Shown here: positions 5,593-20,296 of the stretch, piece after piece
Layout: each line of letters starts with the position of its first letter
How positions within the stretch are numbered: the first letter of the stretch is position 1
Source of the DNA: a virus
IMG/VR virus record: IMGVR_UViG_3300027142_000071
Location: 1-20,344 of that record
Direction: 5' to 3' (one strand)
Length of the DNA stretch: 20,344 nucleotides
The notes under the pieces: model-generated
The model's database searches: none
What the model was told of the DNA's origin: nothing
What the model saw: the letters and a program-made list of their open reading frames with translations, nothing else
Position numbers and translations under genes: made by a program

Positions 5593-6132
5593 ATGGCAAA
5601 GAATCACTATATTAATAACAAGGATTTCCTCAAGGAAATGACTGCATATCGCACAGCAATTCGAAAAGCAAAGAGACAAGGCAACCCAAAGCCTCAGATT
5701 CCTCGCTATGTTGCTGAATGCTTCATGAAGATCGCTGAGAATCTTTCTCACAAGCCAAACTTCTTGTCGTATACCTTTAGAGACGAAATGGTCGCTGACG
5801 CAATTGAAAACTGCGTAATGTACGTTGACAATTTTGATCCAGCGAAATCAAGCAATCCATTTGCCTATTTCACTCAAATAGTATATTATGCATTCTTACG
5901 CCGCATTCAAAAGGAAAAGAAGCAGTTATACGTTAAGTACAAGGCGACTGAGACTGCTGGCATTCTTGATGAATTTGAACTGAATGAAACGGAAGATGGA
6001 ACATTCAGACAATTTGAGTTGTATGATAATATTTCTGAATTTATCGTAAACTACGAGAATTCAAGAAAGAATAAGAAAGCCAAGAAAGTTGGGCTGGAGA
6101 AATTTGTAGATGAAGATAGCAATCCTGGGTGA
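5593..6132 (+). CDS. 55: Late-transcription sigma factor gp55
   Basis: A 179-residue relative of T4 gp55, the minimal sigma factor that directs host RNA polymerase to TATAAATA late promoters. T4-like blocks include YINNKDFLKEM (T4: YVNNKELLQAI), FRDEMVADAIENC (T4: WKQEMIADGIEAS), NFDPAKSSNPFAYFTQ (T4: NFDETKYKNPHAYITQ), and FLRRIQKEKKQLYVKY. As in T4 there is no sigma region 4, so a gp33-like co-activator is expected elsewhere. The C terminus GLEKFVDEDSNPG keeps the hydrophobic-acidic pattern of T4's sliding-clamp-binding tail, fitting clamp-activated late transcription. It overlaps gp47 by 23 nt. The one exact late promoter seen here is at 2548. Confidence 0.93.
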   Translation: MAKNHYINNKDFLKEMTAYRTAIRKAKRQGNPKPQIPRYVAECFMKIAENLSHKPNFLSYTFRDEMVADAIENCVMYVDNFDPAKSSNPFAYFTQIVYYAFLRRIQKEKKQLYVKYKATETAGILDEFELNETEDGTFRQFELYDNISEFIVNYENSRKNKKAKKVGLEKFVDEDSNPG

Positions 6133-7165
6133 TACCCATTTTGGAATGCGCGGTGACTCTATTGCGTTCCACAATCATTATAAAGACTTCTATCTAAATA
6201 CATTTTTTCCGTATTTGGTGGACCATGGAATTAGGACCGTATTTCAACTGGGTGACTTATTTGATCGTCGGAAGTATATCTCTTTTCAGTCTCTTGCTCT
6301 TTGCCGTAATTATTTTTTTGATCAACTTGTAAAGCATGATATTCAATGCCATGTATTACTTGGCAATCACGATATCTTCTTTAAGAATACCCTCGAAGTA
6401 AACTCGCCAGACTTGCTCTTGCGGGATTATGCTCATCATGTCAAACTTTATGATGAGCCAACTGCTTGGGATGGTGTTGATATTATTCCATGGATCTGCA
6501 AAGATAATGAACTTGAGATCATGGACTTCATTAAGCGCAGCCAGAATCAAGTTTGCTTTGGTCACTTTGAACTTGCTGGCTTTGAGATGGATCGTGGCAA
6601 TGTCTGTCATGAAGGTATGGATCCAAGCATTCTAAACAAATACGATCTTGTTCTTTCTGGTCACTTCCATCACAAGAGCAACAGCGGCAGTATTGTATAC
6701 GTTGGCACTCCTGGCGAAATGACTTGGGCTGATTATAATGATGAGCGTGGGTTTCATATTTTTGATACTGAAACTCGTGAACTGACTTTCATTCCAAATC
6801 CCGAGAAGATGTTCCATAAGATTAAGTACAACGATGATGAATTGTTCTATAATGATATTGTCAATGCCGATTATGCAAATTTAAATAACAAGTTTGTGAA
6901 GATTGTTGTTGAGAAACGCAATAACACTTTCTTGTTTGACACTCTGTTAGATTCAATCGCAAAGGTAAATCCTCTCGAAGTGTCTGTTGTTGAAGACTTT
7001 TCTGAGATCACAGATAATGTTGAGGTTGATATCGATCAAGCAGAAGACACAATGACAATCCTGAATAAGTATGTTGATGGCTTGTCTTTACCTGTGGAAT
7101 CAGATAAGATTAAAACTGTTCTGCGTGATGTGTACAATGAAGCATTGTCTATGGAGACAACGTGA
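6110..7165 (+). CDS. 47: Recombination nuclease subunit gp47 (SbcD/Mre11 family)
   Basis: A 351-residue calcineurin-like phosphoesterase, the nuclease half of the gp46/gp47 complex that resects ends for recombination-dependent replication and helps degrade host DNA. Metal-binding motifs in order: GDTHFG (D8, H10), GDLFDRR (D49), GNHD (N86-H87-D88), CFGHFE (H152), and SGHFHH (H185, H187). The C-terminal part after about residue 240 corresponds to the capping and partner-binding region. ATG 6110 lies inside the gp55 end, with GGAG at 6096-6099 ten bases upstream. Its TGA overlaps the GTG start of gp46. All catalytic residues expected for Mre11-type enzymes are present. Confidence 0.95.
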   Translation: MKIAILGDTHFGMRGDSIAFHNHYKDFYLNTFFPYLVDHGIRTVFQLGDLFDRRKYISFQSLALCRNYFFDQLVKHDIQCHVLLGNHDIFFKNTLEVNSPDLLLRDYAHHVKLYDEPTAWDGVDIIPWICKDNELEIMDFIKRSQNQVCFGHFELAGFEMDRGNVCHEGMDPSILNKYDLVLSGHFHHKSNSGSIVYVGTPGEMTWADYNDERGFHIFDTETRELTFIPNPEKMFHKIKYNDDELFYNDIVNADYANLNNKFVKIVVEKRNNTFLFDTLLDSIAKVNPLEVSVVEDFSEITDNVEVDIDQAEDTMTILNKYVDGLSLPVESDKIKTVLRDVYNEALSMETT

Positions 7166-8868
7166 TTCTTTTTAAGAAAGTAAGATACAAAAATTTTCTA
7201 TCAACTGGAAATATCTTTACTGAAATTCCTTTGAATGAAAATGCAACGACATTGATTGTCGGTGAGAATGGTGCGGGTAAGTCAACATTTCTTGACGCCA
7301 TCACATTCTCATTATTCGGTAAACCATTCCGCAATATTAACAAACCTCAACTTGTAAACTCAGTCAACGAAAAAGAATGCGTTGTTGAGGTTGAGTTTTC
7401 TATCAACAAGAAAGAATATAAAGTCATTCGTGGTATCAAGCCAAATGTCTTTGAGATCTATGTTGATGGTAGTTTATTAAACCAAGACGCCAAAGCAAAA
7501 GATTATCAGGATCATTTGGAAAAATTGATTCTGAAGATGAACTACAAATCATTCACACAGATTGTCATTCTTGGATCAACAAACTTTACTCCATTCATGC
7601 AGTTGTCAGCGGCGGACCGTAGAACAGTGATTGAAGATCTGCTTGATATCCAGATTTTTAGTTCCATGAATGTGATTGTAAAAAGTAAAATACACGCACT
7701 TAAAGATGAAGCCGCGCAACTCAAGATTCAGATTGATAACACAAAAGATAAAATCGAATTACACAAGAAACATCTAGACGAACTCAAAAAGAATACCAAA
7801 GAACTAGTAGATGCAAAGAAACAAGAAGTAGTAGAGAATACGGCATCACTCTCGCAACTTGAAAACGATGCAACATCAAAAGAAGTTGAAATTGACAACC
7901 TAGTAAACGAAACAACTGATGAAGATTCAACAACAAAGAAGTTTCAAAAACTAAACAACCTTGAAGCCAAGATCGAAGGGAATATTCAGAAACTCGAGAA
8001 AGACATCGAGTTCTATTCTGTAAATTCGACTTGTCCAACCTGCGATCAGGCTATCAATAACAAAGAAGAAAAAGTACACACATGCAACAGTAAAATTACA
8101 GAACTAACTGAAGGTCTAACAAAACTAAAGGAAGAGAGTGATGCCGTTCTACGTCGAATCAATAACATTAAAGCAACGCAAAAGCAACTTCAGACTCTTG
8201 AACAAGATCTTGTCCGCATTAATACTTCTCGTAGCCAGATTCGAAAGTATGTTAAGAAACTTGAGGATGAAATTGCCGAGATAGAAAATAAACCAGCCAT
8301 GAGCGATGAGTTTAAGGCGCAAAGCAAAACATTACTCAATGCATTGCAAGGATTTAACGATAAACGAAAAGAAGTATCTGAACAAACACAAAACTACGAT
8401 ATTGTCGCGCAGTTGCTTAAAGATGGCGGGATTAAGTCGAAAATCATTAAGCAGTACGTTCCAGTCATAAACAAACTGGTAAATAAGTATTTGGCTGCGA
8501 TGGACTTCTTTGTCAACTTCAACATTGACGAGGAGTTCAAGGAGACCATCAAGTCTCGTCACCGAGATGATTTCAGTTATGAAAACTTCTCAGAAGGTGA
8601 AAAGAAACGTATTGATCTAGCACTGTTGTTTACCTGGAGGTCGGTCGCCAAATTAAAGAACAGTGTCAATACGAATCTGCTCATCTTCGACGAGGTCTTT
8701 GATGGTTCTCTTGACATTAATGGTACTGAAGAATTTATGAAGTTGATATATATGATGAATGATGATGCAAATATTTTTGTTATCACACACAAGACTGATC
8801 AAATGGTTGATAAGTTTAAACATACAATACGATTCGCGAAGGTTAAGAACTTCTCGCAGGTGGTGTAA
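7162..8868 (+). CDS. 46: Recombination nuclease ATPase subunit gp46 (SbcC/Rad50 family)
   Basis: A 568-residue SMC-like ATPase that partners gp47. Walker A GENGAGKST is at 34-42, a Q-loop region near TQIVILGSTNF, and a long coiled coil at about 175-390 broken by a zinc hook CPTC (C291, C294). The ABC signature FSEGEKKRIDLAL is at 476-488 and Walker B LLIFDEVFD at 506-514. Length is near the T4 protein. Translation starts at GTG 7162, overlapping the gp47 stop (GTGA). GGAG at 7153-7156 sits 5 nt upstream and supports that start. The coiled coil is very A-rich (Lys, Glu, Asn codons), giving a local G+C dip that does not imply foreign origin. Confidence 0.96.
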   Translation: MILFKKVRYKNFLSTGNIFTEIPLNENATTLIVGENGAGKSTFLDAITFSLFGKPFRNINKPQLVNSVNEKECVVEVEFSINKKEYKVIRGIKPNVFEIYVDGSLLNQDAKAKDYQDHLEKLILKMNYKSFTQIVILGSTNFTPFMQLSAADRRTVIEDLLDIQIFSSMNVIVKSKIHALKDEAAQLKIQIDNTKDKIELHKKHLDELKKNTKELVDAKKQEVVENTASLSQLENDATSKEVEIDNLVNETTDEDSTTKKFQKLNNLEAKIEGNIQKLEKDIEFYSVNSTCPTCDQAINNKEEKVHTCNSKITELTEGLTKLKEESDAVLRRINNIKATQKQLQTLEQDLVRINTSRSQIRKYVKKLEDEIAEIENKPAMSDEFKAQSKTLLNALQGFNDKRKEVSEQTQNYDIVAQLLKDGGIKSKIIKQYVPVINKLVNKYLAAMDFFVNFNIDEEFKETIKSRHRDDFSYENFSEGEKKRIDLALLFTWRSVAKLKNSVNTNLLIFDEVFDGSLDINGTEEFMKLIYMMNDDANIFVITHKTDQMVDKFKHTIRFAKVKNFSQVV

Positions 8869-9590: not shown

Positions 9591-9660
9591 CGTAAGTTAT
9601 TGATTTTATTAGAGTTTTTTCTGTTGTATTCCAGGAACTTTTATTCTATAATGGTTCTAT
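9591..9660 (+). repeat. Duplicated promoter segment, copy A
   Basis: A 70-bp intergenic segment matching 11943-12012 without gaps. Positions 1-37 agree at 35 of 37 bases and the last 13 bases (from the -10 box) at 11 of 13 or better, while the middle 20 or so diverge. It begins right after the deformylase stop and ends within the ATG of the VWA gene. Confidence 0.88.
9624..9652 (+). promoter_or_regulatory. Sigma70-like promoter P2 (VWA gene)
   Basis: -35 TTGTAT at 9624-9629, 17-bp spacer, perfect -10 TATAAT at 9647-9652. The ATG at 9659 lies exactly 6 nt after the -10 box, so the predicted +1 is the start codon itself. Confidence 0.72.
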
Positions 9661-11947
9661 GAATATGAATATCCAGGCTTCCAAGTCTATCCTCGCCAAA
9701 CTCTTGGCGAGCGAGAATATCACGGTCTCGCACCAAAATGTCAAGACCGCATACTTCGACCTCAAGAATCGTACGATGGTGCTGCCTGTCTGGAAGGACA
9801 TGGATGGCGACTTGTATGACTTGCTGACTGGTCACGAAGTTGGTCATGCTCTGAACACTCCGCAGCAGGGCTGGCATAATGAAGTTGCTGCAACTGAAAA
9901 GAAATTCAAAGATTTCTTGAACGTCATCGAAGATGCGCGCATTGAGAAACTGGTCAAGCGCAAATTCCCTGGACTTTCCAAGTCTTTTGCGCGTGCATAT
10001 GCGTCATTGTATGAGCGCGATTTCTTCGGCATCAAGAAACTCGAAGACCTCAACACGCTCAATCTAATTGACCGCATCAACCTGCGCTTCAAGATGGGTT
10101 CACATGTCATTGTTGAATTCAATGACTTTGAGCGCGAGATTGTTCGCGAAGTTGAGGCTGTTGAAACATGGGATCAAGTTGTTGATATTGCTCGACGTGT
10201 GTATGATTACACGAAGCAGAATGAACAAAATAAGGTTCAGAATCAGCAAGACCTTCAAGAGCAGATGCGCAATGAGCGTCAAGAGACTCAAGAAGATTCT
10301 GGCGAGTTCGATGACATCGATGACAATTCTGACTATGAAGACGACATCGACGGCAACGATGACTCTGACCTAGACGAAGAATCAGACGGCACTGACGCTG
10401 AAGATTCGCAGGATCAAACTGAGTCTGAAGACGAAGACGATGCTAGCAGCGATCAATACAGTCCTGGCGAAGGCGCTGAAGAAGAACAAGAAGATGACGG
10501 TGAACCGCAGTCTGTAACTGACCGCAATTTCCGCCAGCGCGAGCAGGAATTGGTCAACGAGACTGGCAAAATCTTCATGTATGAATTGCCTGATGCTGTT
10601 CTTGAGAATATTATTCTTCCGAACACGGAAGTTGTGAGTGATCTTGAGAAATTCTTCCGCGAGCAAGTTGCTGATCCGACTCGCACTTATGGCAAACACG
10701 GTATCTCATACGACACTGTTGTGCAGAAGTGTGTGCGCAAGTTTAACACCAACAACAAGAAAGTCATCATGCATATCTTGAAGGAATTCGAGATGCGCAA
10801 GAAAGCCAGCGAGTATGCTCGAACGCAGACTGCTCGAACTGGTGAGTTGAACATGAATGTGCTGCACAAGTATCGTTTCAGCAATGACTTGTTCCGCAAG
10901 ATCACTGTCGTACCGAAGGGCAAGAATCATGGCTTTGTCATGTTTGTTGACATGTCTGGTTCGATGGGCGATATTCTTCGCAACACGATTGAGCAGATGC
11001 TTGTGCTTGCGTCGTTCTGTAAACTTGCCAAAGTCCCGTTTGAAGTTTATGGTTTCAGCGACGATTGTTATGGCAACAAGAAGTTGCGCGAGATGGTGAA
11101 CAAAGATCGTTTCGTGTCTAATCGTGCTGTTGACATGACGATGAGCAGCAGTTGGTTTCATCTCAAGCATCTGATTGGTTCTTCGTTGTCGCCTGTCCAG
11201 TATCGTCGTGCGTTCAATGCGATGTGCGTTGTTGCCAATGAGTATGGTCGTTGCTATGGATATGGCTATTATCCCCAAACCAATCAGGATGAAGATCATG
11301 GTGGTTGGTCATACAGTTGGGATTCATCTGGCTTTGGCTTGAATGGAACTCCGTTTCTCGAAACTCTGCTTGCTTCTCGCGGAATCATTACTGCATTCCA
11401 GAACAAGCATCAGTTGGATGTTTGCAACGTTGTATATCTCACCGACGGTGACGGTGGCAATCATCTTTCATATCCTCCGATGAGCAGCGACTCTGGTTTC
11501 TATGACGATCGTCGCAAGTCTGTTGTGTATCTGATTGACAAAAAGACCAAGAAGAAAGTGAAGTTGCCAAATTTCCATGATATGCAATCTGCCATCACGG
11601 AGTTGGTTGCCGATGTGACTGGTTGTAAGCATATTGGTTTCTATGTTGGCAACAAGAAAGGCATTCAGCGTGACATGAAGCATTTTGTTGCTGATAAGTC
11701 TCATGTTGAACAAGATGCTGCCAAGAAAACTTTCCGCGAGCACAATTACTTTGTTGTTGATCGTCTTGGTTATGACAAGTATTTCTATGTTGCTCTTCCG
11801 AACAGTAACATCGTTGATGACAAACTTGAGATCACCAGCGATATGAACAAGAACAAGATGGCTCGCGAATTTTCCAAGACTGTGGGCAGCAAGAAGAGTA
11901 ATCGCCTCCTGCTCACGAAACTCGCCGAAGAATTGGCGGTTGCGTAA
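9659..11947 (+). CDS. Metallopeptidase-like and VWA-domain protein (CobT/MoxR-partner type)
   Basis: A 762-residue multidomain protein. Residues 1-110 hold a zincin-like site GHEVGH (H59, E60, H63) followed by NVIEDARIE (88-96), whose Glu could be the third zinc ligand, as in putative metallopeptidase domains that accompany VWA domains. Residues 212-283 are a very acidic Asp/Glu/Ser stretch like the middle of CobT. The C-terminal VWA domain has a MIDAS motif DMSGS (D431, S433, S435), a candidate MIDAS Thr in NGTPF (T564), and TDGDG at 595-599. Such proteins act with MoxR/CobS AAA+ ATPases, and one is encoded next door. True cobaltochelatase is unlikely with no other cobalamin gene here. There is no SD before ATG 9659; ATG 9665 is an alternative. 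Substrate is unknown; proteolysis is only inferred from HExxH. Confidence 0.92.
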   Translation: MNMNIQASKSILAKLLASENITVSHQNVKTAYFDLKNRTMVLPVWKDMDGDLYDLLTGHEVGHALNTPQQGWHNEVAATEKKFKDFLNVIEDARIEKLVKRKFPGLSKSFARAYASLYERDFFGIKKLEDLNTLNLIDRINLRFKMGSHVIVEFNDFEREIVREVEAVETWDQVVDIARRVYDYTKQNEQNKVQNQQDLQEQMRNERQETQEDSGEFDDIDDNSDYEDDIDGNDDSDLDEESDGTDAEDSQDQTESEDEDDASSDQYSPGEGAEEEQEDDGEPQSVTDRNFRQREQELVNETGKIFMYELPDAVLENIILPNTEVVSDLEKFFREQVADPTRTYGKHGISYDTVVQKCVRKFNTNNKKVIMHILKEFEMRKKASEYARTQTARTGELNMNVLHKYRFSNDLFRKITVVPKGKNHGFVMFVDMSGSMGDILRNTIEQMLVLASFCKLAKVPFEVYGFSDDCYGNKKLREMVNKDRFVSNRAVDMTMSSSWFHLKHLIGSSLSPVQYRRAFNAMCVVANEYGRCYGYGYYPQTNQDEDHGGWSYSWDSSGFGLNGTPFLETLLASRGIITAFQNKHQLDVCNVVYLTDGDGGNHLSYPPMSSDSGFYDDRRKSVVYLIDKKTKKKVKLPNFHDMQSAITELVADVTGCKHIGFYVGNKKGIQRDMKHFVADKSHVEQDAAKKTFREHNYFVVDRLGYDKYFYVALPNSNIVDDKLEITSDMNKNKMAREFSKTVGSKKSNRLLLTKLAEELAVA

Positions 11948-12012
11948 GTTGTTGATTTTATTAGAGTTTTTACTGTTGTTTCCTGTGTGTTTTTCAGCGA
12001 TAATAGTTCTAT
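11943..12012 (+). repeat. Duplicated promoter segment, copy B
   Basis: Second copy of the 70-bp segment at 9591-9660, beginning inside the TAA stop of the VWA gene. The base triplet aligned with the VWA start ATG is ATA here, so the start codon of the downstream gene lies further on. Confidence 0.88.
11976..12004 (+). promoter_or_regulatory. Sigma70-like promoter P3 (AAA+ gene)
   Basis: -35 TTGTTT at 11976-11981, 17-bp spacer, -10 GATAAT at 11999-12004; predicted +1 about 12011. This leaves a short leader containing GGAG (12024-12027). Confidence 0.65.
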
Positions 12013-12033
12013 AGATTGATAATGGAGTCTGAT

Positions 12034-13422
12034 GTGAGAAAGTCTAATTATGATAATGCGGCTCGGATTGAGATTCTTGAGCGATTGCATGCGCACTTCG
12101 ACAAGGATACTATCTCGTTGAAGGAACTGAATGCCTTCTGCGAAAACAAGAAAAACAACGTTGAATTCTTTCCGTATTTTATTCTGCGTGAGCGCAAGGT
12201 TGCTCGTGGTCAATTCAGCATCGTACCGAGTGCTGCCAGTGCGATCGCTGCTCCGAAGCAGACTGCTGAAGTCCCTGTTGCTGCGGCTGCGATGGTTGCG
12301 CAAGTTGTGAACATTGCCAGCCGTCGTGCGCAAAATGTCACTGAGTCATTTGTGCCTGACCGCAACGAAACGTATGTTCCGTTCGGATTCTACAACGACA
12401 TGCGCGACATCATCAAGTCGCGAATCTTCTATCCTATCTACATCACTGGCTTGTCAGGTAACGGCAAGACATTCATGATTGAGCAGGTTTGTGCTGCGTT
12501 GAAGCGTGAGTTGATTCGCGTCAATATCACGAAGCGCACCGATGAATCTGACTTGATTGGTTCCTATGAATTGGTTGATGGCAATACCATCCGTCGTGAA
12601 GGTCCAGTGATTACAGCGATGCGTCGTGGTGCTGTGCTCTTGCTTGACGAGTGCGATCTCGGCACGGAAGACATTCTGTGCTTGCAGCCGATTCTTGAAG
12701 GCAAGCCATACTTTGACAAAAAGACTGGTGAAGTTGTCCACCCTGCTGCTGGCTTCAACGTGATTGCAACTGCGAACACGAAGGGCAAGGGCAGCGACGA
12801 TGGTCGGTTCATCGGTACAAACTTGCTCAACGAAGCATTCCTCGAGCGTTTCGCCATCACGGTCGAGCAGGAATATCCTCCTGCTGCTACTGAGCGCAAG
12901 ATTCTTGAGAAGAATTTCGCTGTTCTTGGTATCACTGACACGACGTTCATTGACCGTCTTATCACGTGGGCTGAAGTCATCCGCAAGAGTTTCTCGGATG
13001 GTGCGGTTGATGAAGTTATCTCAACTCGTCGTCTTGTTCATATCAGCAAGGCATTCTCTATCTTCAACAATCGTTTGAAGGCAATCGAGATGTGCTTGAA
13101 CCGATTCGATACTGATACCAAGACTGCGTTCTTGGATCTGTACACGAAGGTTGATGCGGAGGCAACTGCTCCAGTCGTACCGAAAAATGATGTTCAAGTG
13201 GAAACGATGAATGATCCAAATACTGGCAATCTTACCGTTCGTGTGATCAAGAATGGTAAAACGCAAGAAATGGTGTTGACTGCAATGGATATGGTGGAGT
13301 ATCAGCTTCAAGGAATGACTGAGCAGCAGGTTATTGATCGCGTCGTCAAGACTCTTGCTGAAGCTGATTTGATGACTTCTAGAATTCAATTGCTCAATCA
13401 AATTGTGATTAATGGAGGCTGA
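12034..13422 (+). CDS. MoxR/CobS-type AAA+ ATPase
   Basis: A 462-residue AAA+ ATPase of the MoxR/CobS clade, which remodels partner complexes together with VWA proteins. Numbered from GTG 12034: N-terminal helical region (1-50), Ala-rich linker (about 65-95), Walker A GLSGNGKT (139-146), Walker B VLLLDECD (201-208), sensor 1 IATAN (244-248), and arginine-finger region FLERF (269-273), then a helical lid and a C-terminal extension of over 100 residues. The GTG is chosen because GGAG ends 6-7 nt before it and the context matches the next gene's start (GGAGG, then GCTGAT, then ATG). ATG 12022 (466 residues) and a TTG at 12016 are in frame but lack an SD. Phage CobS annotations often refer to this family; a role in cobalamin synthesis is not supported here. 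Confidence 0.92.
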   Translation: MRKSNYDNAARIEILERLHAHFDKDTISLKELNAFCENKKNNVEFFPYFILRERKVARGQFSIVPSAASAIAAPKQTAEVPVAAAAMVAQVVNIASRRAQNVTESFVPDRNETYVPFGFYNDMRDIIKSRIFYPIYITGLSGNGKTFMIEQVCAALKRELIRVNITKRTDESDLIGSYELVDGNTIRREGPVITAMRRGAVLLLDECDLGTEDILCLQPILEGKPYFDKKTGEVVHPAAGFNVIATANTKGKGSDDGRFIGTNLLNEAFLERFAITVEQEYPPAATERKILEKNFAVLGITDTTFIDRLITWAEVIRKSFSDGAVDEVISTRRLVHISKAFSIFNNRLKAIEMCLNRFDTDTKTAFLDLYTKVDAEATAPVVPKNDVQVETMNDPNTGNLTVRVIKNGKTQEMVLTAMDMVEYQLQGMTEQQVIDRVVKTLAEADLMTSRIQLLNQIVINGG

Positions 13423-13423
13423 T

Positions 13424-13612
13424 ATGGATCAGTTTAGAATGAAAATGCAAGAAAAGGTCAATGTGTTCTTGGATAGACTTCGTGAGTCTGGTGAAACTAA
13501 CATGTTTGGTGCAGCCCCATATATCCAAGAAGCGTTTGGTGTAAACCGAACTGAAGCCAAGCAGTATCTTTTAAATTGGATGGAGACTTTTGCTGAGAGG
13601 CACAAGCAATAA
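13424..13612 (+). CDS. Small hypothetical protein (62 aa)
   Basis: A 62-residue protein starting one base after the AAA+ stop, with a strong GGAGG at 13414-13418 and 5 nt spacing, so the ATG at 13424 is preferred over one at 13412 that lies within the SD region. The sequence FGAAPYIQEAFGVNRTEAKQYLLNWMETF looks like a compact helical bundle with a possible helix-turn-helix (AAPYIQEAFGVNRTEAKQYL). Coupling to the AAA+ gene suggests a shared role, but nothing in the sequence defines it. Confidence 0.75.
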   Translation: MDQFRMKMQEKVNVFLDRLRESGETNMFGAAPYIQEAFGVNRTEAKQYLLNWMETFAERHKQ

Positions 13613-14596: not shown

Positions 14597-14617
14597 GTCA
14601 TGAGAGGAGAAAATATC

Positions 14618-15910
14618 ATGACCAAAATTATTGTGGCAAAAACAAAATATGATTGTGAGCATCTGCTTGGACAATTTCTTGATGAATCACATTATGATGT
14701 TTTAATCGACGAAGACACAGATTGCTATCTTCATAATGAAGATGAAAGCAGCATTGCATTTAAGTTTCGTAAAAACTTCTTCTCCAAGGAAGAACAAGAG
14801 GCTGCTTATACTGGCTTGCGTGAAGCAGCCACACCAACTCAGAATCGTGGTCTTGCTGCAGGACCAAAGGGTGAGAAGTGCGGTGGTCGTGAGTGGGTGA
14901 CAGAATTTCAGATGCAAGTGTTTGATCTCTTCCAGAAGGAAGCAGAAAATACTGCAATCAAAATTAATGTTAAAGAAGAAATTGATAGACTTCGCGAACT
15001 TTATCAAAATAAAGAATCAACACGCGGTCTTGTTTGGTTGTCTGCTCTTGTTAAACAAGATGACTTTAGTTTTGAAAACTGGTTAGAGAATGTCAGCAAT
15101 CTTTCTGTCACAGAGCGAAAGAAAGAAGCACACAAAGTCGAAAACAAATATATTTCTGACACCACATATGCCAATCAGGTGAATTCTGGTATTGCTGGAT
15201 GGTTTGATCGTTATCCTCGAATTCCATACGGTCGAGCAACTGCATACACACAACATTCGTTCGACAAATTTAAAATGTCATTTCCATTTCTGCAAACACT
15301 TGATCGTGGTTTCGCTGAGTTGCTTCCAACTCGTCATGCCGCTCAACGCGAAGCAGCAGATAAAATTGATTCAGCATTTCTGGTTCCACAAACTGTATTT
15401 ACTACAATCACAGTGAACAAGACTTTCAGAACAGCAGCACATCGTGATGCTGGCGACTTTACAAATGGTTTGAGTAATCTTCTGGTTCTATCAAATAATG
15501 GTAATTATTCAGGTGGATATTTGATTCTTCCAGAAGTTCGTGTTGCTGTGAATGTACGTCCAGGTGACTTGTTGTTGGTTAATAATCATGAGTACATTCA
15601 CGGCAATACACCCATTGTAGTTAATGATGAAGTTGCAGAACGCATCAGTCTTGTCTGTTACTTGCGTGAGAAGATGCTAGAACTTGGAAGTAAAGAATAT
15701 GAAGATCATCGATTTAATTATGTTGAGTCACGTCGAAAGAACCCAGAACACCCACTTCAACGACGTCTTTGGAATGGTATTTCCGAAGGAATGTGGGACG
15801 AACAAGAATGGTATGACTATCTGGAGAGAATTGGTGGAAGGGCGATGGTTGAAAAGTATCATCCAAAAGCATACGAAAAGATCTCAACTCTAGAAGATTT
15901 GTTCGCTTAA
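14618..15910 (+). CDS. TET/JBP-like 2-oxoglutarate/Fe(II) dioxygenase
   Basis: A 430-residue protein whose C-terminal third is a double-stranded beta-helix dioxygenase of TET/JBP type. It has VNKTFRTAAHRDAGDF with iron ligands H275 and D277, GGYLILPEVRVAVNVRPGDLL, likely distal ligand H328 in YIHGN, and R342 in ERISLVCY for 2-oxoglutarate. TET enzymes hydroxylate 5-methylcytosine and JBPs hydroxylate thymine in DNA; phage members do likewise where tested. Residues 1-245 are a long N-terminal region of unknown role, perhaps DNA binding. ATG 14618 is chosen because AGGAG (14605-14609) sits 8 nt upstream. ATG 14600 is in frame but lies only 3 nt after the -10 box, before the likely transcript start. 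First gene of the operon. Its base substrate (T or 5mC) cannot be read here, and no methyltransferase is visible. Confidence 0.86.
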   Translation: MTKIIVAKTKYDCEHLLGQFLDESHYDVLIDEDTDCYLHNEDESSIAFKFRKNFFSKEEQEAAYTGLREAATPTQNRGLAAGPKGEKCGGREWVTEFQMQVFDLFQKEAENTAIKINVKEEIDRLRELYQNKESTRGLVWLSALVKQDDFSFENWLENVSNLSVTERKKEAHKVENKYISDTTYANQVNSGIAGWFDRYPRIPYGRATAYTQHSFDKFKMSFPFLQTLDRGFAELLPTRHAAQREAADKIDSAFLVPQTVFTTITVNKTFRTAAHRDAGDFTNGLSNLLVLSNNGNYSGGYLILPEVRVAVNVRPGDLLLVNNHEYIHGNTPIVVNDEVAERISLVCYLREKMLELGSKEYEDHRFNYVESRRKNPEHPLQRRLWNGISEGMWDEQEWYDYLERIGGRAMVEKYHPKAYEKISTLEDLFA

Positions 15911-15911
15911 T

Positions 15912-16595
15912 ATGTGTGCAGTGATTGGTGCTTACATCGAGAATCCAAGTTCTCTTGATTTGATCATGCTTGAGAATGTTTTCCGCGAGTCGAGTATTCG
16001 CGGATTGCACGCAACTGGTGTGTCGTGGGTCAAGGGTGGTCAAATTGATAGTCGCATTGACGCTGTTCCAGCAACCAAGTTTCTAGATTCATTTGATTTG
16101 CAATCATGCGTCAATGAAGACGGCAATCTATATCTAATTGGTCATTGTCGTTATTCAACCTCTGATCTTGCTTACAATCAGCCACTGTGGAATGAAAATG
16201 TTTCTATTGTTCACAATGGCGTTGTGAGTCAAGAGATGCCAGAGAACTGGGAACGACTTTATGGATACAAATGCAAAACTCGTAATGATTCTGAATTAAT
16301 TGTTCATACACTCCAAGCAAATAAATCTCCACTTGAAGAGTTTTCTAATTCCTCAATGGCTGTAATTGAACTGTATAAAGAAAAGAAGTTACGTTTCTAT
16401 CGCAACGGAAAGCGTCCAATTTACTTTACTTCTTTGCGCAATGGCGTTATAATTACTTCTACGAAAGATATTGCAAAGCGTTCTGATTTGTTTGAATCCC
16501 ATGAGATTCCAATGAATCAATACATCACAGTTGCAAAGGGTATCTTTCATATGAAAACCATCTTGATTGATAACGCAAAGGATCTTCAACAGTGA
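15912..16595 (+). CDS. Class II glutamine amidotransferase domain protein
   Basis: A 227-residue N-terminal-nucleophile amidotransferase. Cys2 becomes the catalytic N-terminal Cys after Met removal (MCAVIGAY). Other hallmarks are RGLHATG (30-36), GHCRYST (77-83), VHNGVVS (100-106), and a RNDSEL block (124-129) that matches the glutamine-binding Asp region. It would release ammonia from glutamine in the cytoplasm. GlmS, PurF and AsnB carry this domain fused to a synthase domain, but here it is alone, so the acceptor enzyme must be another protein. Its place between the oxygenase and the acetyltransferase suggests ammonia for a modified nucleotide or an amino-group donor; that is inference. It starts 1 bp after the oxygenase stop, and its TGA overlaps the next GTG. 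Confidence 0.9.
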   Translation: MCAVIGAYIENPSSLDLIMLENVFRESSIRGLHATGVSWVKGGQIDSRIDAVPATKFLDSFDLQSCVNEDGNLYLIGHCRYSTSDLAYNQPLWNENVSIVHNGVVSQEMPENWERLYGYKCKTRNDSELIVHTLQANKSPLEEFSNSSMAVIELYKEKKLRFYRNGKRPIYFTSLRNGVIITSTKDIAKRSDLFESHEIPMNQYITVAKGIFHMKTILIDNAKDLQQ

Positions 16596-17227
16596 AGTTT
16601 GCGACTAAAGAACAAGTAGAAGATTTGATAAGAAATTCGCCAGAAGGAAAGAACACGAAGTTTCTTTCTGCATCCCACAGCCTCTGGTTTCGATTTAAGA
16701 ACTACGATAAATCTCCGCCAATGATTCTTGAGGACAATGGTAAGATTGTCTCGCTTATTTTCGCAACATTCAATCGAGATAGGTACACTAACCTCTATGA
16801 GATCGTAACGGCGGAAGGATGCGAGGGTAAAGGATACGCATCGCAGATCTGGGATCAATATGTAGATTACGCTGTCAATATGCAGAACATGAAACGGCTT
16901 AAAATCTCTTGCACTCCAAGTTCTGTTACATGGCATATGAAAAATGGTCTTGTATTTTGGGCAGTTGATCCTACTGGATCATTACGCTCTGATCAACCTC
17001 TGTTCAAGAATCGTGAAGAGCAATTGATCTTTCGGAAACTCGCAGTAGACGATCCCTCAATTGCGCTGCCGACTGATTCGAAAGTGTTACTACAACTGCA
17101 AAATGAATCTCTGGAATCCCATAAGTTCGGATCGAAAAAGAAAGCCACGACTGAAGATGCAATTAATAAAGTTGGCAAATACTGGCTGCGTGATGCGTTA
17201 TTTCATCAAGTTGATTTGTTTGCATGA
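16592..17227 (+). CDS. GNAT-family N-acetyltransferase
   Basis: 211 residues with a GNAT core. Strand beta-4 YEIVTAEG leads into the acetyl-CoA pyrophosphate loop CEGKGYAS (77-84), followed by the helix IWDQYVDYAV, the strand KRLKISCTPSS, and a terminal WHMKNGLVFW block. A tail of about 70 residues after the core (from 145) is basic in its middle (HKFGSKKKATTED). GTG 16592 overlaps the amidotransferase stop (GTGA). Acceptors of GNAT enzymes are amines. In phage hypermodification clusters they are thought to acylate the amine installed on the base, and that is the best guess here. A protein target, or capsid or host modification, is not excluded. Confidence 0.86.
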   Translation: MKFATKEQVEDLIRNSPEGKNTKFLSASHSLWFRFKNYDKSPPMILEDNGKIVSLIFATFNRDRYTNLYEIVTAEGCEGKGYASQIWDQYVDYAVNMQNMKRLKISCTPSSVTWHMKNGLVFWAVDPTGSLRSDQPLFKNREEQLIFRKLAVDDPSIALPTDSKVLLQLQNESLESHKFGSKKKATTEDAINKVGKYWLRDALFHQVDLFA

Positions 17228-18231
17228 ATTTAGAAAGACGTGAACAATTTATAAGATGGTATGCATGGTCCATGAAATATGGCGATTGCGATCCAGCCGT
17301 ATGGTGCACAAACTATCTACACCAGCGATACGAACACAATGACGAAGAACGTCTGTGGTTTGCATGGCTTTATGGTAACACATATCAACTACCAACTGCA
17401 TGGGTTCTAAAAAATGAATTCCCTGACTATGAACTCGCCACTGTGGATCGCATCACTTGGTGGAATTCAACAAACTATAAACGACTCAGATACCAAACAG
17501 ATACAAAGTGGAACAAAGGTCACTTGCCAGCCATGTTCGAATCTTATCAAAAATTTATTGGCAAAAAAACTCAACGTGAAGTGCTGGAGAATTATTATGG
17601 AGACAACGAACAACGGACTTTCGACAACCTTTGGAATAATCTTAAAAACTCTCTTCACAAATTTGGTCGCTATTCCACTTGGTTTTATATGCAGCATCTC
17701 GCTCATACTGCTGGCATTAACTGCATACCTACTTCTCTCATGCTTTCTGATTATTCTGGCTCTCGCTCACATCGTAATGGCTTGCATCTTGCCCTCGGCG
17801 AAGATGACAAGTACGATACAAGACTTACTGCTGCAGAATGCGATGACCTTGAAAGTAAAGCGAAAGACATTCTCGAAGAAACAAGAGGAAGATTCCCTAG
17901 TTTAAAAAATCAAATTGATTTCTTCACGATGGAAACTTGCCTTTGTTCGTTCAAGAAAATCTTTCGTGAACACCATGGACGTTATCTTGGATATTATCTC
18001 GATCGTCAGTCTGAAGAAATCATGCAAGCAGAACAAGATGGTTGGGCTGGCATTGAATGGAACGTCTTATGGCAAGCACGCAATGAGACACTAGATGAAA
18101 GACTTGCTCCTAGAAGTAAAATCAACAAAGAAAAGTTTACTTTCTTTTTGAGAACAGGTAGAATAGAAAAACTAGATTGGATGTTTGATGATGAGGAAGT
18201 CCCGAAACAAGGACTGGAGGCTATATGGTGA
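17224..18231 (+). CDS. Amino acid:DNA transferase-like protein (hypermodification)
   Basis: A 335-residue protein that I match from memory to the amino acid:DNA transferase / alpha-glutamyl-putrescinyl thymine pyrophosphorylase group of phage hypermodification enzymes. These replace the phosphate on phosphorylated 5-hydroxymethyl-dU in DNA with an amino acid or amine. Conserved-looking blocks are YGDCDPA (19-25), TYQLPTAWVLKNEFPD (53-68), NYKRLRYQTDTKWNKGHLP (84-102), KFGRYSTWFY (146-155), and DYSGSRSHRNGL (176-187). It is wholly soluble and rich in Trp and Tyr. The family call is supported by the next gene, a DNA-kinase-like protein that would make its substrate. ATG 17224 overlaps the GNAT stop (ATGA). 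Exact subfamily and catalytic residues are uncertain; an HMM search would settle this. Confidence 0.76.
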   Translation: MNLERREQFIRWYAWSMKYGDCDPAVWCTNYLHQRYEHNDEERLWFAWLYGNTYQLPTAWVLKNEFPDYELATVDRITWWNSTNYKRLRYQTDTKWNKGHLPAMFESYQKFIGKKTQREVLENYYGDNEQRTFDNLWNNLKNSLHKFGRYSTWFYMQHLAHTAGINCIPTSLMLSDYSGSRSHRNGLHLALGEDDKYDTRLTAAECDDLESKAKDILEETRGRFPSLKNQIDFFTMETCLCSFKKIFREHHGRYLGYYLDRQSEEIMQAEQDGWAGIEWNVLWQARNETLDERLAPRSKINKEKFTFFLRTGRIEKLDWMFDDEEVPKQGLEAIW

Positions 18232-18794
18232 GAGTGATTGCGATGGGTGGTGAGCCAGCAACTGGCAAGACTACTCTGATGTTCAAGTTGATTTCGATGG
18301 CTGATGATTGGAAGATCTGTAAGCCACAGAAACTTCTTGATGCCATGTATTCAGAAAAATTAAATCTGTATATTCTTGGCAAATATGCAAATGATGGTAA
18401 TGTGTTTCAGGGAACAGATCGTTTGTCAATGGCTGTACAACCAGACGCTGAGAAGTTCTTCATGGAATTAGATTATGAAAATGCAAATGTGAACGTGATC
18501 TTCGAAGGCGATCGTTTGTTTAACGCTAAACTTTTAGATAAACTTTCGGAATCGTTTCCGAATGATTTTAAAGTTCTTGTTCTAACTGCGTCACATGATA
18601 CCAAAGAACAGCGTCATGTGGATCGCAAGGATGATCAAGACGATAAATTTAAGAATTCTCGTGCGACAAAAATCTCGAATATAATGGGTTCGTTGACACT
18701 CATGGACTATATAGAGACAATGGTCAACGAAAATCTCGATGATCAGTCTAAGATTATTGATGTTATTAGAAAATTTTACAACTGGAGTGAATAA
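18225..18794 (+). CDS. P-loop kinase, 5-hmdU DNA kinase-like
   Basis: A 189-residue P-loop kinase with Walker A GEPATGKT (9-16), a Walker B-like VIFEGD (91-96), and a distinctive ILGKYANDGNVFQGTDRLSM segment (50-69). I associate that segment with kinases that phosphorylate 5-hydroxymethyl-deoxyuridine already in DNA, the activation step before amino-acid transfer. It overlaps the upstream transferase gene by 7 nt, in keeping with a two-step pair. GGAGG at 18216-18220 lies 4 nt from ATG 18225 and 7 nt from GTG 18228, so the GTG (one residue shorter) may be the real start. A free-nucleotide kinase is the main alternative; gp1 at 19628 already fills that role. Confidence 0.8.
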   Translation: MVRVIAMGGEPATGKTTLMFKLISMADDWKICKPQKLLDAMYSEKLNLYILGKYANDGNVFQGTDRLSMAVQPDAEKFFMELDYENANVNVIFEGDRLFNAKLLDKLSESFPNDFKVLVLTASHDTKEQRHVDRKDDQDDKFKNSRATKISNIMGSLTLMDYIETMVNENLDDQSKIIDVIRKFYNWSE

Positions 18795-18796
18795 TT

Positions 18797-19612
18797 ATGC
18801 AGTTAGAAGTATCTGTTGAACAGTTGCGCAAAAATAAACTATTTGTTGCAACACCCATGTATGGCGGTTCTGCCCATGGCATGTATGTTAAATCCTGTCT
18901 TGACCTCCAATCCGTTTGTTCACAATATGGTATTGAAGTTCGATTCTCATTCATCTTTAATGAGTCTCTGATCACTCGCGCTCGTAACTATCTTGTTGAC
19001 GAATTCTTGCGCGCAGAAGGATTCACTCATTTGCTCTTTATCGATGCTGACATTCACTTTGATCCGCGAGATGTCGTCGCACTTCTTGCTTTGGATAAAG
19101 AAGTTGTTGGTGGTCCATATCCAAAGAAATCGATCAAGTGGGGAGCAATCAAGGAAGGCGTGAAGAAGCACCCAAACATTGAACCAAGTGATATGGAGAA
19201 ATTGGCTGGAGATTTTGTCTTCAATCCAGTTCCTGGCACCGAGAAGTTCTCTGTTGCTGAACCAATTGAAGTCCTTGAAATCGGTACTGGCTTCATGATG
19301 GTCAAGCGTGAAGTGTTTGATAAGTTTAAAGAACAATATCCACAACTTCGTTATCGTCCAGATCATGTCGGTCAGGCAAACTTCGATGGCTCGCGTTATA
19401 TCCATGCTTACTTTGATACAGTCATTGATAGCGTTGTGAATGGCGGCAAGGGTTCCGATCGTTACTTGTCTGAAGACTACATGTTCTGCCAGTGGTGGCG
19501 TAACATGGGCGGCAGCATCTGGTTGTGCCCATGGATGAAGACGCATCACATTGGAACCTATGCATTCACTGGTGATATGCCAGCCGTTGCAAACTTTGTT
19601 GGCTCTCTCTGA
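18797..19612 (+). CDS. GT-A fold glycosyltransferase
   Basis: A 271-residue glycosyltransferase. The N terminus KLFVATPMYGG begins a Rossmann-like GT-A domain. Residues around FNESLITRARNYLVDEFL and LLFIDADIHFDP contain the metal- and sugar-nucleotide-binding DxD (D83, D85). VVGGPYPKK (103-111), EIGTGFMMVKREVF, and a late SEDYMFCQWW (225-234) with H250/H251 in KTHHIGTYAF complete the usual acceptor-side motifs. There is no signal peptide or membrane helix, so it acts in the cytoplasm. Its place between the DNA-kinase-like gene and gp1 makes glycosylation of a hydroxymethylated base a reasonable hypothesis. It is unlike T4 alpha- or beta-glucosyltransferase in sequence, and related phage glycosyltransferases may act elsewhere. 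Start ATG lies 2 bp after the preceding stop. Confidence 0.88.
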   Translation: MQLEVSVEQLRKNKLFVATPMYGGSAHGMYVKSCLDLQSVCSQYGIEVRFSFIFNESLITRARNYLVDEFLRAEGFTHLLFIDADIHFDPRDVVALLALDKEVVGGPYPKKSIKWGAIKEGVKKHPNIEPSDMEKLAGDFVFNPVPGTEKFSVAEPIEVLEIGTGFMMVKREVFDKFKEQYPQLRYRPDHVGQANFDGSRYIHAYFDTVIDSVVNGGKGSDRYLSEDYMFCQWWRNMGGSIWLCPWMKTHHIGTYAFTGDMPAVANFVGSL

Positions 19613-19627
19613 TAAAGAGATTTTGTT

Positions 19628-20296
19628 ATGATTGTAGGTTTGATTGGCTTTATTGGAGCAGGTAAAGGCACAGTTGCAGATCTCTTGGTCGATCGTCATG
19701 ATTTCGAAAAAGAGAGTTTTGCAAATAGCGTCAAAGACGCCTGTGCCACAATCTTTGGTTGGAATCGCTCCATGCTTGAGGGTGACACTTTAGAATCCAG
19801 AGCATGGCGCGAACAACCAGATGTATGGTGGTCAGAAAAACTCGGTCGTGAGTTCTCACCAAGATTAGCACTCCAGCTAATGGGCACAGAGGCAGGTCGT
19901 GATGTATTTCACCCTGACCTCTGGGTTCATACAACAATGCGTCGATGTGAGAATAATCCTTGGCACAATCACGTGATTGCTGATGTTCGTTTTCCAAACG
20001 AGATTAATGCAATCATAAAGTCTGGTGGTAAGATTGTTCGTGTTCGTCGTGGTGAAGATCCAGAATGGTTTGCACTTGCTCGCGAGTGCAATATCTATAA
20101 CAAACAAGAAATAATGCGCAATGCATATCCAGAAGTTCATTATTCAGAATGGGCTTGGGTTGGTTCACATTATGATATTGTGATGGATAATAATTGTTCG
20201 TTAGATGAGTTGACCGTTAGGGTTGACAAGTTGGTTGATTCGTTATATAATAATCGTGTTGAAGCAAATGAGGTCGTTAATTATGAAACTTTCTGA
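19628..20296 (+). CDS. 1: Deoxynucleoside monophosphate kinase (gp1-like)
   Basis: A 222-residue P-loop kinase similar to T4 gp1, which phosphorylates dGMP, dTMP and 5-hydroxymethyl-dCMP for phage DNA synthesis. Walker A is GFIGAGKGT (7-15). SFANSVKDACATIFGW matches the gp1 region after the first helix, LMGTEAGRDVFHPDLWV matches T4 LMQALGTDLIVNNFDRMYWV, and IADVRFPNEI is the DxR-containing segment. A short purine-rich AAAGAGA (19614-19620) serves as RBS, though TCTCT just upstream could pair with AGAGA. Its end overlaps gp45 by 14 nt. In T4, gene 1 lies far from gene 45; here it joins the modification genes to the replisome genes. Confidence 0.88.
   Translation: MIVGLIGFIGAGKGTVADLLVDRHDFEKESFANSVKDACATIFGWNRSMLEGDTLESRAWREQPDVWWSEKLGREFSPRLALQLMGTEAGRDVFHPDLWVHTTMRRCENNPWHNHVIADVRFPNEINAIIKSGGKIVRVRRGEDPEWFALARECNIYNKQEIMRNAYPEVHYSEWAWVGSHYDIVMDNNCSLDELTVRVDKLVDSLYNNRVEANEVVNYETF

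Follow-up and report, generated by a model that had tools for sequence, protein, structure and literature searches.

Phage gene pairs coding for an AAA+ ATPase and a protein with a VWA domain have been described under more than one name. In T4-like cyanophages the ATPase gene, cobS, is a core gene and is among the most frequent 'auxiliary metabolic genes' of viromes, where it is read as a gene of B12 synthesis (PMC9301287, PMC2984593). In the part of PMC8651126 that treats it, the pair is called a viral CobST using host CobN, and the annotation of cobT as 'peptidase' is deemed mistaken; the corresponding part of PMC7824862 describes a jumbo-phage MoxR-vWA pair with an N-terminal metallopeptidase, proposed by analogy with the virus ATV to act in virion assembly and processing. 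A first-pass annotation of the DNA studied here had considered the phage function unsettled; two readings are in print, although the passages of these two papers that deal with the pair report no functional experiment. We analysed such a pair in the IMG/VR virus record IMGVR_UViG_3300027142_000071, a 20,344-base record of a T4-like phage (the window, meaning the whole stretch analysed). We consider it probable that the pair is an ATP-driven AAA+/VWA-MIDAS (metal-ion-dependent adhesion site) protein remodeler equipped with a gluzincin-like peptidase. The AAA+ protein would be the ring motor on which the VWA protein may dock; the VWA protein would grip a client through its MIDAS metal site, in the manner of NorQ-NorD or Midasin; and its N-terminal domain may cut that client. 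The replication or middle phase of infection, rather than vitamin B12 synthesis, is where such a machine would most likely act.

Both genes lie at 9659 to 13422, where the first-pass annotation had put them, and the features of the pair (positions in the window) are these:

9659 to 11947, + strand: VWA gene, 762 amino acids, with zincin-like domain, acidic linker and VWA domain; PHROG 459 'peptidase', T4-GC146
9659 to 10282, + strand: N-terminal zincin-like domain, amino acids 1–208, from the AlphaFold2 model and PDB fold matches
9833 to 9847, + strand: H59-E-V-G-H63, predicted zinc ligands and catalytic Glu
9920 to 9946, + strand: N88-V-I-E91-D92-A-R94-I-E96, with E91 the predicted third zinc ligand, from conservation and its place in the second helix after the HExxH helix
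10271 to 10513, + strand: acidic linker, predicted disordered, amino acids 205–285, 49% D or E
10922 to 11944, + strand: VWA domain, amino acids 422–762, from structural matches
10949 to 10963, + strand: MIDAS DxSxS, D431 to S435 (D431, S433, S435)
11348 to 11350, + strand: T564, completing the MIDAS
11444 to 11446, + strand: D596, completing the MIDAS
12022 to 13422, + strand: AAA+ ATPase gene, CobS/NorQ type; PHROG 249, T4-GC150; alternative TTG start at 12016
12448 to 12471, + strand: Walker A GLSGNGKT, invariant in 27 homologues except at L146
12637 to 12651, + strand: Walker B LLLDE, catalytic D and E invariant

The match of the VWA protein to PHROG 459 spanned the whole protein (E 2.8e-182), and residues 96–390 of the AAA+ protein matched PHROG 249 (E 2.4e-113), a family labelled 'porphyrin biosynthesis' whose T4-GC150 name is 'CobS'. 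Relatives of the VWA protein were found in 463 phage records, nearly all of them cyanophages and pelagiphages, and those of the AAA+ protein in 445, at 60–80% identity; the counterparts in S-PM2 and P-SSM2 are T4-GC146 and T4-GC150, between gp46 and gp45. The two genes stood together on one strand in all 66 loci with downstream room. The pair is a divergent member of a known T4-like marine phage family, whose usual label, that of an enzyme of vitamin B12 synthesis, is probably wrong; what is new is the set of results that sets the phage pair apart from cobaltochelatase. For the AAA+ gene, the ATG at 12022 is a more likely start than the TTG at 12016 that had been assigned earlier.

The N-terminal domain of the VWA protein was examined by motif, conservation and fold. 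HEVGH is present at 59–63 as first described; the EDARIE motif is present as well, but at 91–96, the interval 88–96 given for it reading NVIEDARIE. Residues H59, E60, H63, N88, E91, D92, R94 and I95 were invariant in 51 of 51 distinct relatives, most of them only 32–36% identical. When the N-terminal 208 residues were shuffled, HExxH arose in 0.7% of cases, whereas 20,000 shuffles never produced HExxH with NxxEDxR after it. Of the 208 columns 44 are invariant, and the seven named residues would all fall among these with a chance of about 1e-5, a figure to be read knowing that the positions were picked for the motif. In the AlphaFold2 model of this domain (predicted local distance difference test score 84.8, predicted template modelling score 0.79), HExxH lies in a helix at 50–66 and E91 in one at 81–102. 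Most of its best PDB fold matches were zinc metallopeptidases, headed by ZMPSTE24 (Z 7.0), ArdC, IrrE, BlaR1 and jannalysin/selecase, and nearly all of the top 20 structural matches were zincins, with Z at most 7.0. A Z of 7 would be insufficient by itself, but fold, motif and conservation point the same way and together make a fairly persuasive case for a zincin-like domain, and we propose that the domain is a small gluzincin-like metallopeptidase that would bind zinc and may be proteolytic. HExxH is also kept in DLP6, XG4, RHEph10, SSU5, V1VFA-S, CRP810, ICP2, GMA7 and HHTV-2, and many phage 'CobT' proteins carry the same domain. In the halovirus HHTV-2 (L260, 416–2989) the zincin domain (gp2, HEVQH) and the VWA domain (gp3) are separate adjacent proteins. 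Searches with Pfam detected no peptidase domain in the VWA protein; matches of this protein to WHD_ORC2 and Aegyptin were weak and below the cut-off and were disregarded.

Several observations weigh against a peptidase. The fold matches are modest, the best Z of 7.0 lying under the level that the tool regards as safe. Both zinc histidines have been lost in far relatives that keep the AAA+/VWA pair; the positions of HExxH read SEIAK in hairong, REVST in BUCTxx99 and QEVAK in an Acinetobacter plasmid, and nothing of the motif is left in Caballeronia. As the pair is kept in these relatives, proteolysis is not needed for its core function everywhere. The loss, seen in loci L094, L095, L099 and L098 with MIDAS and AAA+ retained, apparently occurred more than once. 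It concerns far relatives; the first-pass annotation had named loss of the zinc ligands in close relatives as evidence against its view, and all 51 of these keep them. The lineages without zinc histidines, and cellular CobT, a degenerate homologue (see below) that works without them, fit an alternative in which the pair is a pure remodeler whose N-terminal domain would hold zinc or a client without cutting. Set against this is the invariance of the catalytic Glu60 and the ligands across the 51 divergent relatives, and we regard the non-cutting alternative as rather unlikely.

The remaining parts of the pair bear on the remodeler itself. The long acidic stretch and the MIDAS VWA domain noted in the first-pass annotation were both found: residues 205–285 contain 40 D or E among 81 and a single K or R, and the MIDAS residues D431, S433, S435, T564 and D596 were invariant in the 51 distinct relatives. 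The VWA domain was too divergent to reach the Pfam VWA models, but its fold was clear from structure comparison, the nearest being the Midasin/Rea1 MIDAS domain (Z 15.2) and the VWA domain of NorD bound to NorQ (Z 15.1), with generic VWA domains at about 12. In the AAA+ protein, positions G145, S147 to T152, D211, E212, N254, R278, R338 and R339 were invariant, so that Walker A, Walker B, sensor and Arg finger are intact. Its Pfam composition of AAA_5 and CbbQ_C bears out the CobS part of the earlier label, MoxR/CobS type, as CobS/NorQ type; it is not MoxR proper. Because the AAA+ active site is invariant and the nearest VWA folds, Midasin and NorD, are both partners of AAA+ motors, these results support a remodeler.

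A further line of support comes from a promoter-like element that is present twice in the window:

9591 to 9660, + strand: 70-nt promoter-like element before the VWA gene, 79% identical to the copy at 11943–12012
11943 to 12012, + strand: 70-nt promoter-like element before the AAA+ gene, copy of the element at 9591–9660

The 20-mer core of the element occurred 2 times in the window, against 0.02 expected, and close relatives had the element at the same place before both genes, which suggests joint regulation. The common element and the linkage of the genes in all loci with room are consistent with two proteins that work as one remodeler. The element contains a −10-like ATAAT, its last base some 7 nt upstream of the VWA start codon, and a leaderless VWA mRNA is possible. 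Two relatives (L007 and L008) have a third copy further upstream.

To place the pair in the infection, we compared its neighbours among lineages. In the window the gene order is head scaffold, major capsid protein, tail tube, UvsY, UvsW, late sigma gp55, gp47, gp46, peptide deformylase and then the pair, with two of these genes assigned from gene order:

6110 to 7165: gp47
7162 to 8868: gp46

In Kyanoviridae the pair lies between gp46/gp47 and gp45-gp44-gp62-gp43. Stenotrophomonas phage DLP6 has a different gene order, the pair following gp43, UvsX and gp41; in XG4 it precedes clamp-loader and polymerase (gp44/gp43-like) genes, recognised from the translated sequence; in RHEph10, SSU5, hairong, BUCTxx99 and plasmid relatives it precedes DNA polymerase III alpha; and in ICP2 it precedes a primase and a helicase. 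Phage-plasmids from Enterobacteria and Aeromonas (L262, L093, L264 and about 1000 plasmid records) have the same pair ahead of DNA polymerase III alpha; there it is annotated as cobalamin or porphyrin biosynthesis, and HExxH was intact in those checked. The weight of these neighbours is reduced by the large share that replication genes make up of such genomes, and by the polymerase III group probably counting as one event. It is possible, at rather less than even confidence, that the pair serves a replication client.

Much the same evidence bears on the proposal that the pair acts in virion assembly and processing, where a MoxR-vWA chaperone would remodel structural proteins and also cleave them. 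The domain logic is the same, a conserved peptidase site would suit processing, and a MoxR-vWA pair is reported for tail assembly of the archaeal virus ATV (cited in the part of PMC7824862 on such pairs). On the other side stand the replication-gene neighbours in several lineages. Nucleic acid genes of cyanomyoviruses are middle genes and capsid genes late ones (PMC7238727), and of 25 cyanophage-core genes only T4-GC15 and T4-GC190 were named virion structural proteins, cobS being core but not so named (PMC3037559). The only ATAAATA late-promoter-like site of the window precedes the tail tube gene and not the pair, a weak point given that 3 such sites are expected by chance. We favour a replication-phase role over virion assembly, which we consider unlikely, without regarding the former as proven.

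A different client is invoked if the pair serves host takeover, dismantling or cleaving a host complex of transcription, photosynthesis or defence. A conserved protease domain on a client-gripping arm would suit this, as would the occurrence of the pair in phages of very different hosts, archaeal viruses included; yet a single conserved active site across so broad a range is more readily explained if the client is phage-encoded or universal than if it is a host target particular to one lineage. A search for defence systems with PADLOC gave no match for either protein. The suggestion of the first-pass annotation that the pair possibly attacks or activates a host complex gained no support, and takeover seems to us quite improbable.

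There remains the reading under which these genes are usually counted, a viral cobaltochelatase in which phage CobS and CobT replace the host partners and drive cobalt insertion by host CobN, yielding more B12 for a class II ribonucleotide reductase. Several similarities are real. The AAA+ protein is CobS-like (TIGR01650, E 1.3e-22); the VWA protein has the CobT order of N-terminal domain, acidic linker and VWA domain; CobN is present in a cyanobacterial control genome; and the phages with DNA polymerase III form a bridge to cellular CobT by profile, in the VWA domain (E 3.8e-50) as well as in the N-terminal domain. For the latter, the Kyanoviridae profile matched that of the RHEph10/SSU5 group (97.4%, E 1e-11), which in turn matched cellular CobT (94.9%, E 4.5e-8), the direct match between Kyanoviridae and cellular CobT being weak (9.5%). 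A direct whole-length match to cellular CobT (69%) was set aside since it includes the acidic linker. Owing to this bridge we treat the Kyanoviridae and CobT N-terminal domains as homologous. The cellular CobT set came from a scan of bacterial genomes, mostly with CobS adjacent, of which 73 were kept; their HExxH columns read, for example, DQMALR or DSFALR, and the third-ligand Glu is kept in EQAR. The pattern suggests that the N-terminal domain of cellular CobT is a degenerate homologue carrying a dead zincin site. CobT was not among the fold matches listed for either model, to which we give no weight either way.

Other observations weigh against a chelatase. Both phage proteins fell far from the curated cut-offs (16.9 of 759.05 bits for TIGR01651 CobT, 80.4 of 558.55 bits for TIGR01650 CobS). 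HExxH was found within the first 250 residues in none of the 73 cellular CobT proteins, as against all 51 phage relatives. A search for CobN in 16 phage records, which included a close relative of 172,991 bases, HTVC008M, S-PM2, Mosig, P-SSM2, RHEph10, SSU5, hairong, CRP810 and ICP2, found none; 13 of 24 cellular CobT genomes, which may be drafts, were positive. The window itself is a fragment, and the negative result speaks for the phage records searched. A clear ribonucleotide reductase was present in eight phages, and seven of these (HTVC008M, S-PM2, Mosig, P-SSM2, SSU5, hairong and DLP6) had class I NrdA/E over the cut-off; no record had class II NrdJ over it, RHEph10 being unclear. In an AAA+ tree, rebuilt after the very long branches of a first version had been dropped, cellular CobS formed one clade with roseophage CRP810 beside it and Kyanoviridae formed another; a joint clade of Kyanoviridae and cellular CobS was rejected (approximately unbiased test, p 0.0066). 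As long branches are in play, we take the tree as supporting and not final. Pelagiphages carry the pair though SAR11 is not known to make B12. Neither clustering with cellular CobS nor, in the phage records searched, an accompanying CobN was thus found, and the preference of the first-pass annotation for remodelling or processing over chelation is supported; a viral cobaltochelatase is the most improbable of these readings. Several bacterial genomes with CobT, for example that of Caulobacter vibrioides, gave no CobN match, in assemblies that may be drafts, so that even cellular CobST may have other roles.

Genes downstream of the pair were also inspected. A 66-aa open reading frame at 13412–13612 shares its first 11 bases with the AAA+ gene and has a sub-cut-off match to DUF5049. 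The region 14600–20296 is likely a DNA hypermodification cassette, with a Tet/JBP dioxygenase, a glutamine amidotransferase-like protein, a GNAT acetyltransferase, an amino acid:DNA transferase (ADDT, E 1e-20), a P-loop kinase, a glycosyltransferase-like protein and a dNMP kinase. At 18225–18794 a P-loop kinase-like protein matched (E 2e-10) a PHROG called terminase small subunit, a name that is probably wrong for this family.

The argument for a remodeler rests on HExxH retention, the lack of CobN in the phage records, class I ribonucleotide reductase, a separate AAA+ clade and the replication neighbourhood. If phage CobS and CobT are a protein-remodelling protease, many ecological inferences on viral B12 production are wrong, and a function has yet to be assigned to a conserved machine carried by marine phages of great abundance. 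We tentatively offer one, somewhat unlikely as a whole: a widespread viral AAA+/VWA/metallopeptidase machine might serve the phage replisome, for instance through the removal or trimming of complexes engaged in replication or transcription, with bacterial CobST a relative that lost the peptidase site. On that view phage 'cobS', which is tallied worldwide among B12 genes, would not belong with the metabolic genes.

Compared with known systems, the pair is nearest to the PHROG 459/249 pair of Kyanoviridae isolates, with which it shares gene order and neighbourhood; the VWA protein of the window is, however, only about 30–40% identical to theirs and the AAA+ domain 59–66%, and a peptide deformylase gene lies between gp46 and the pair. 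The group 2.2 jumbo-phage MoxR-vWA-metallopeptidase pair has, as described in that part of PMC7824862, the same architecture and is likely of the same family, but virion assembly was proposed for it there whereas the context in the window points to replication. With gluzincins and minigluzincins (selecase, jannalysin, ZMPSTE24) the phage domain, known from sequence and model, has in common the HExxH helix and downstream Glu, at low overall similarity. Cobaltochelatase CobNST shares the CobT domain order, a CobS-type AAA+ protein and, through intermediates, the N-terminal domain; the phage pair differs in keeping HExxH, in being without CobN and in having its AAA+ protein in a separate clade. 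NorQ-NorD and Midasin/Rea1 combine an AAA+ ring with a MIDAS VWA domain and provide the closest VWA folds (Z 15), but the NorD-like proteins checked are without HExxH, and Midasin is a single giant chain, unlike the two-gene phage pair.

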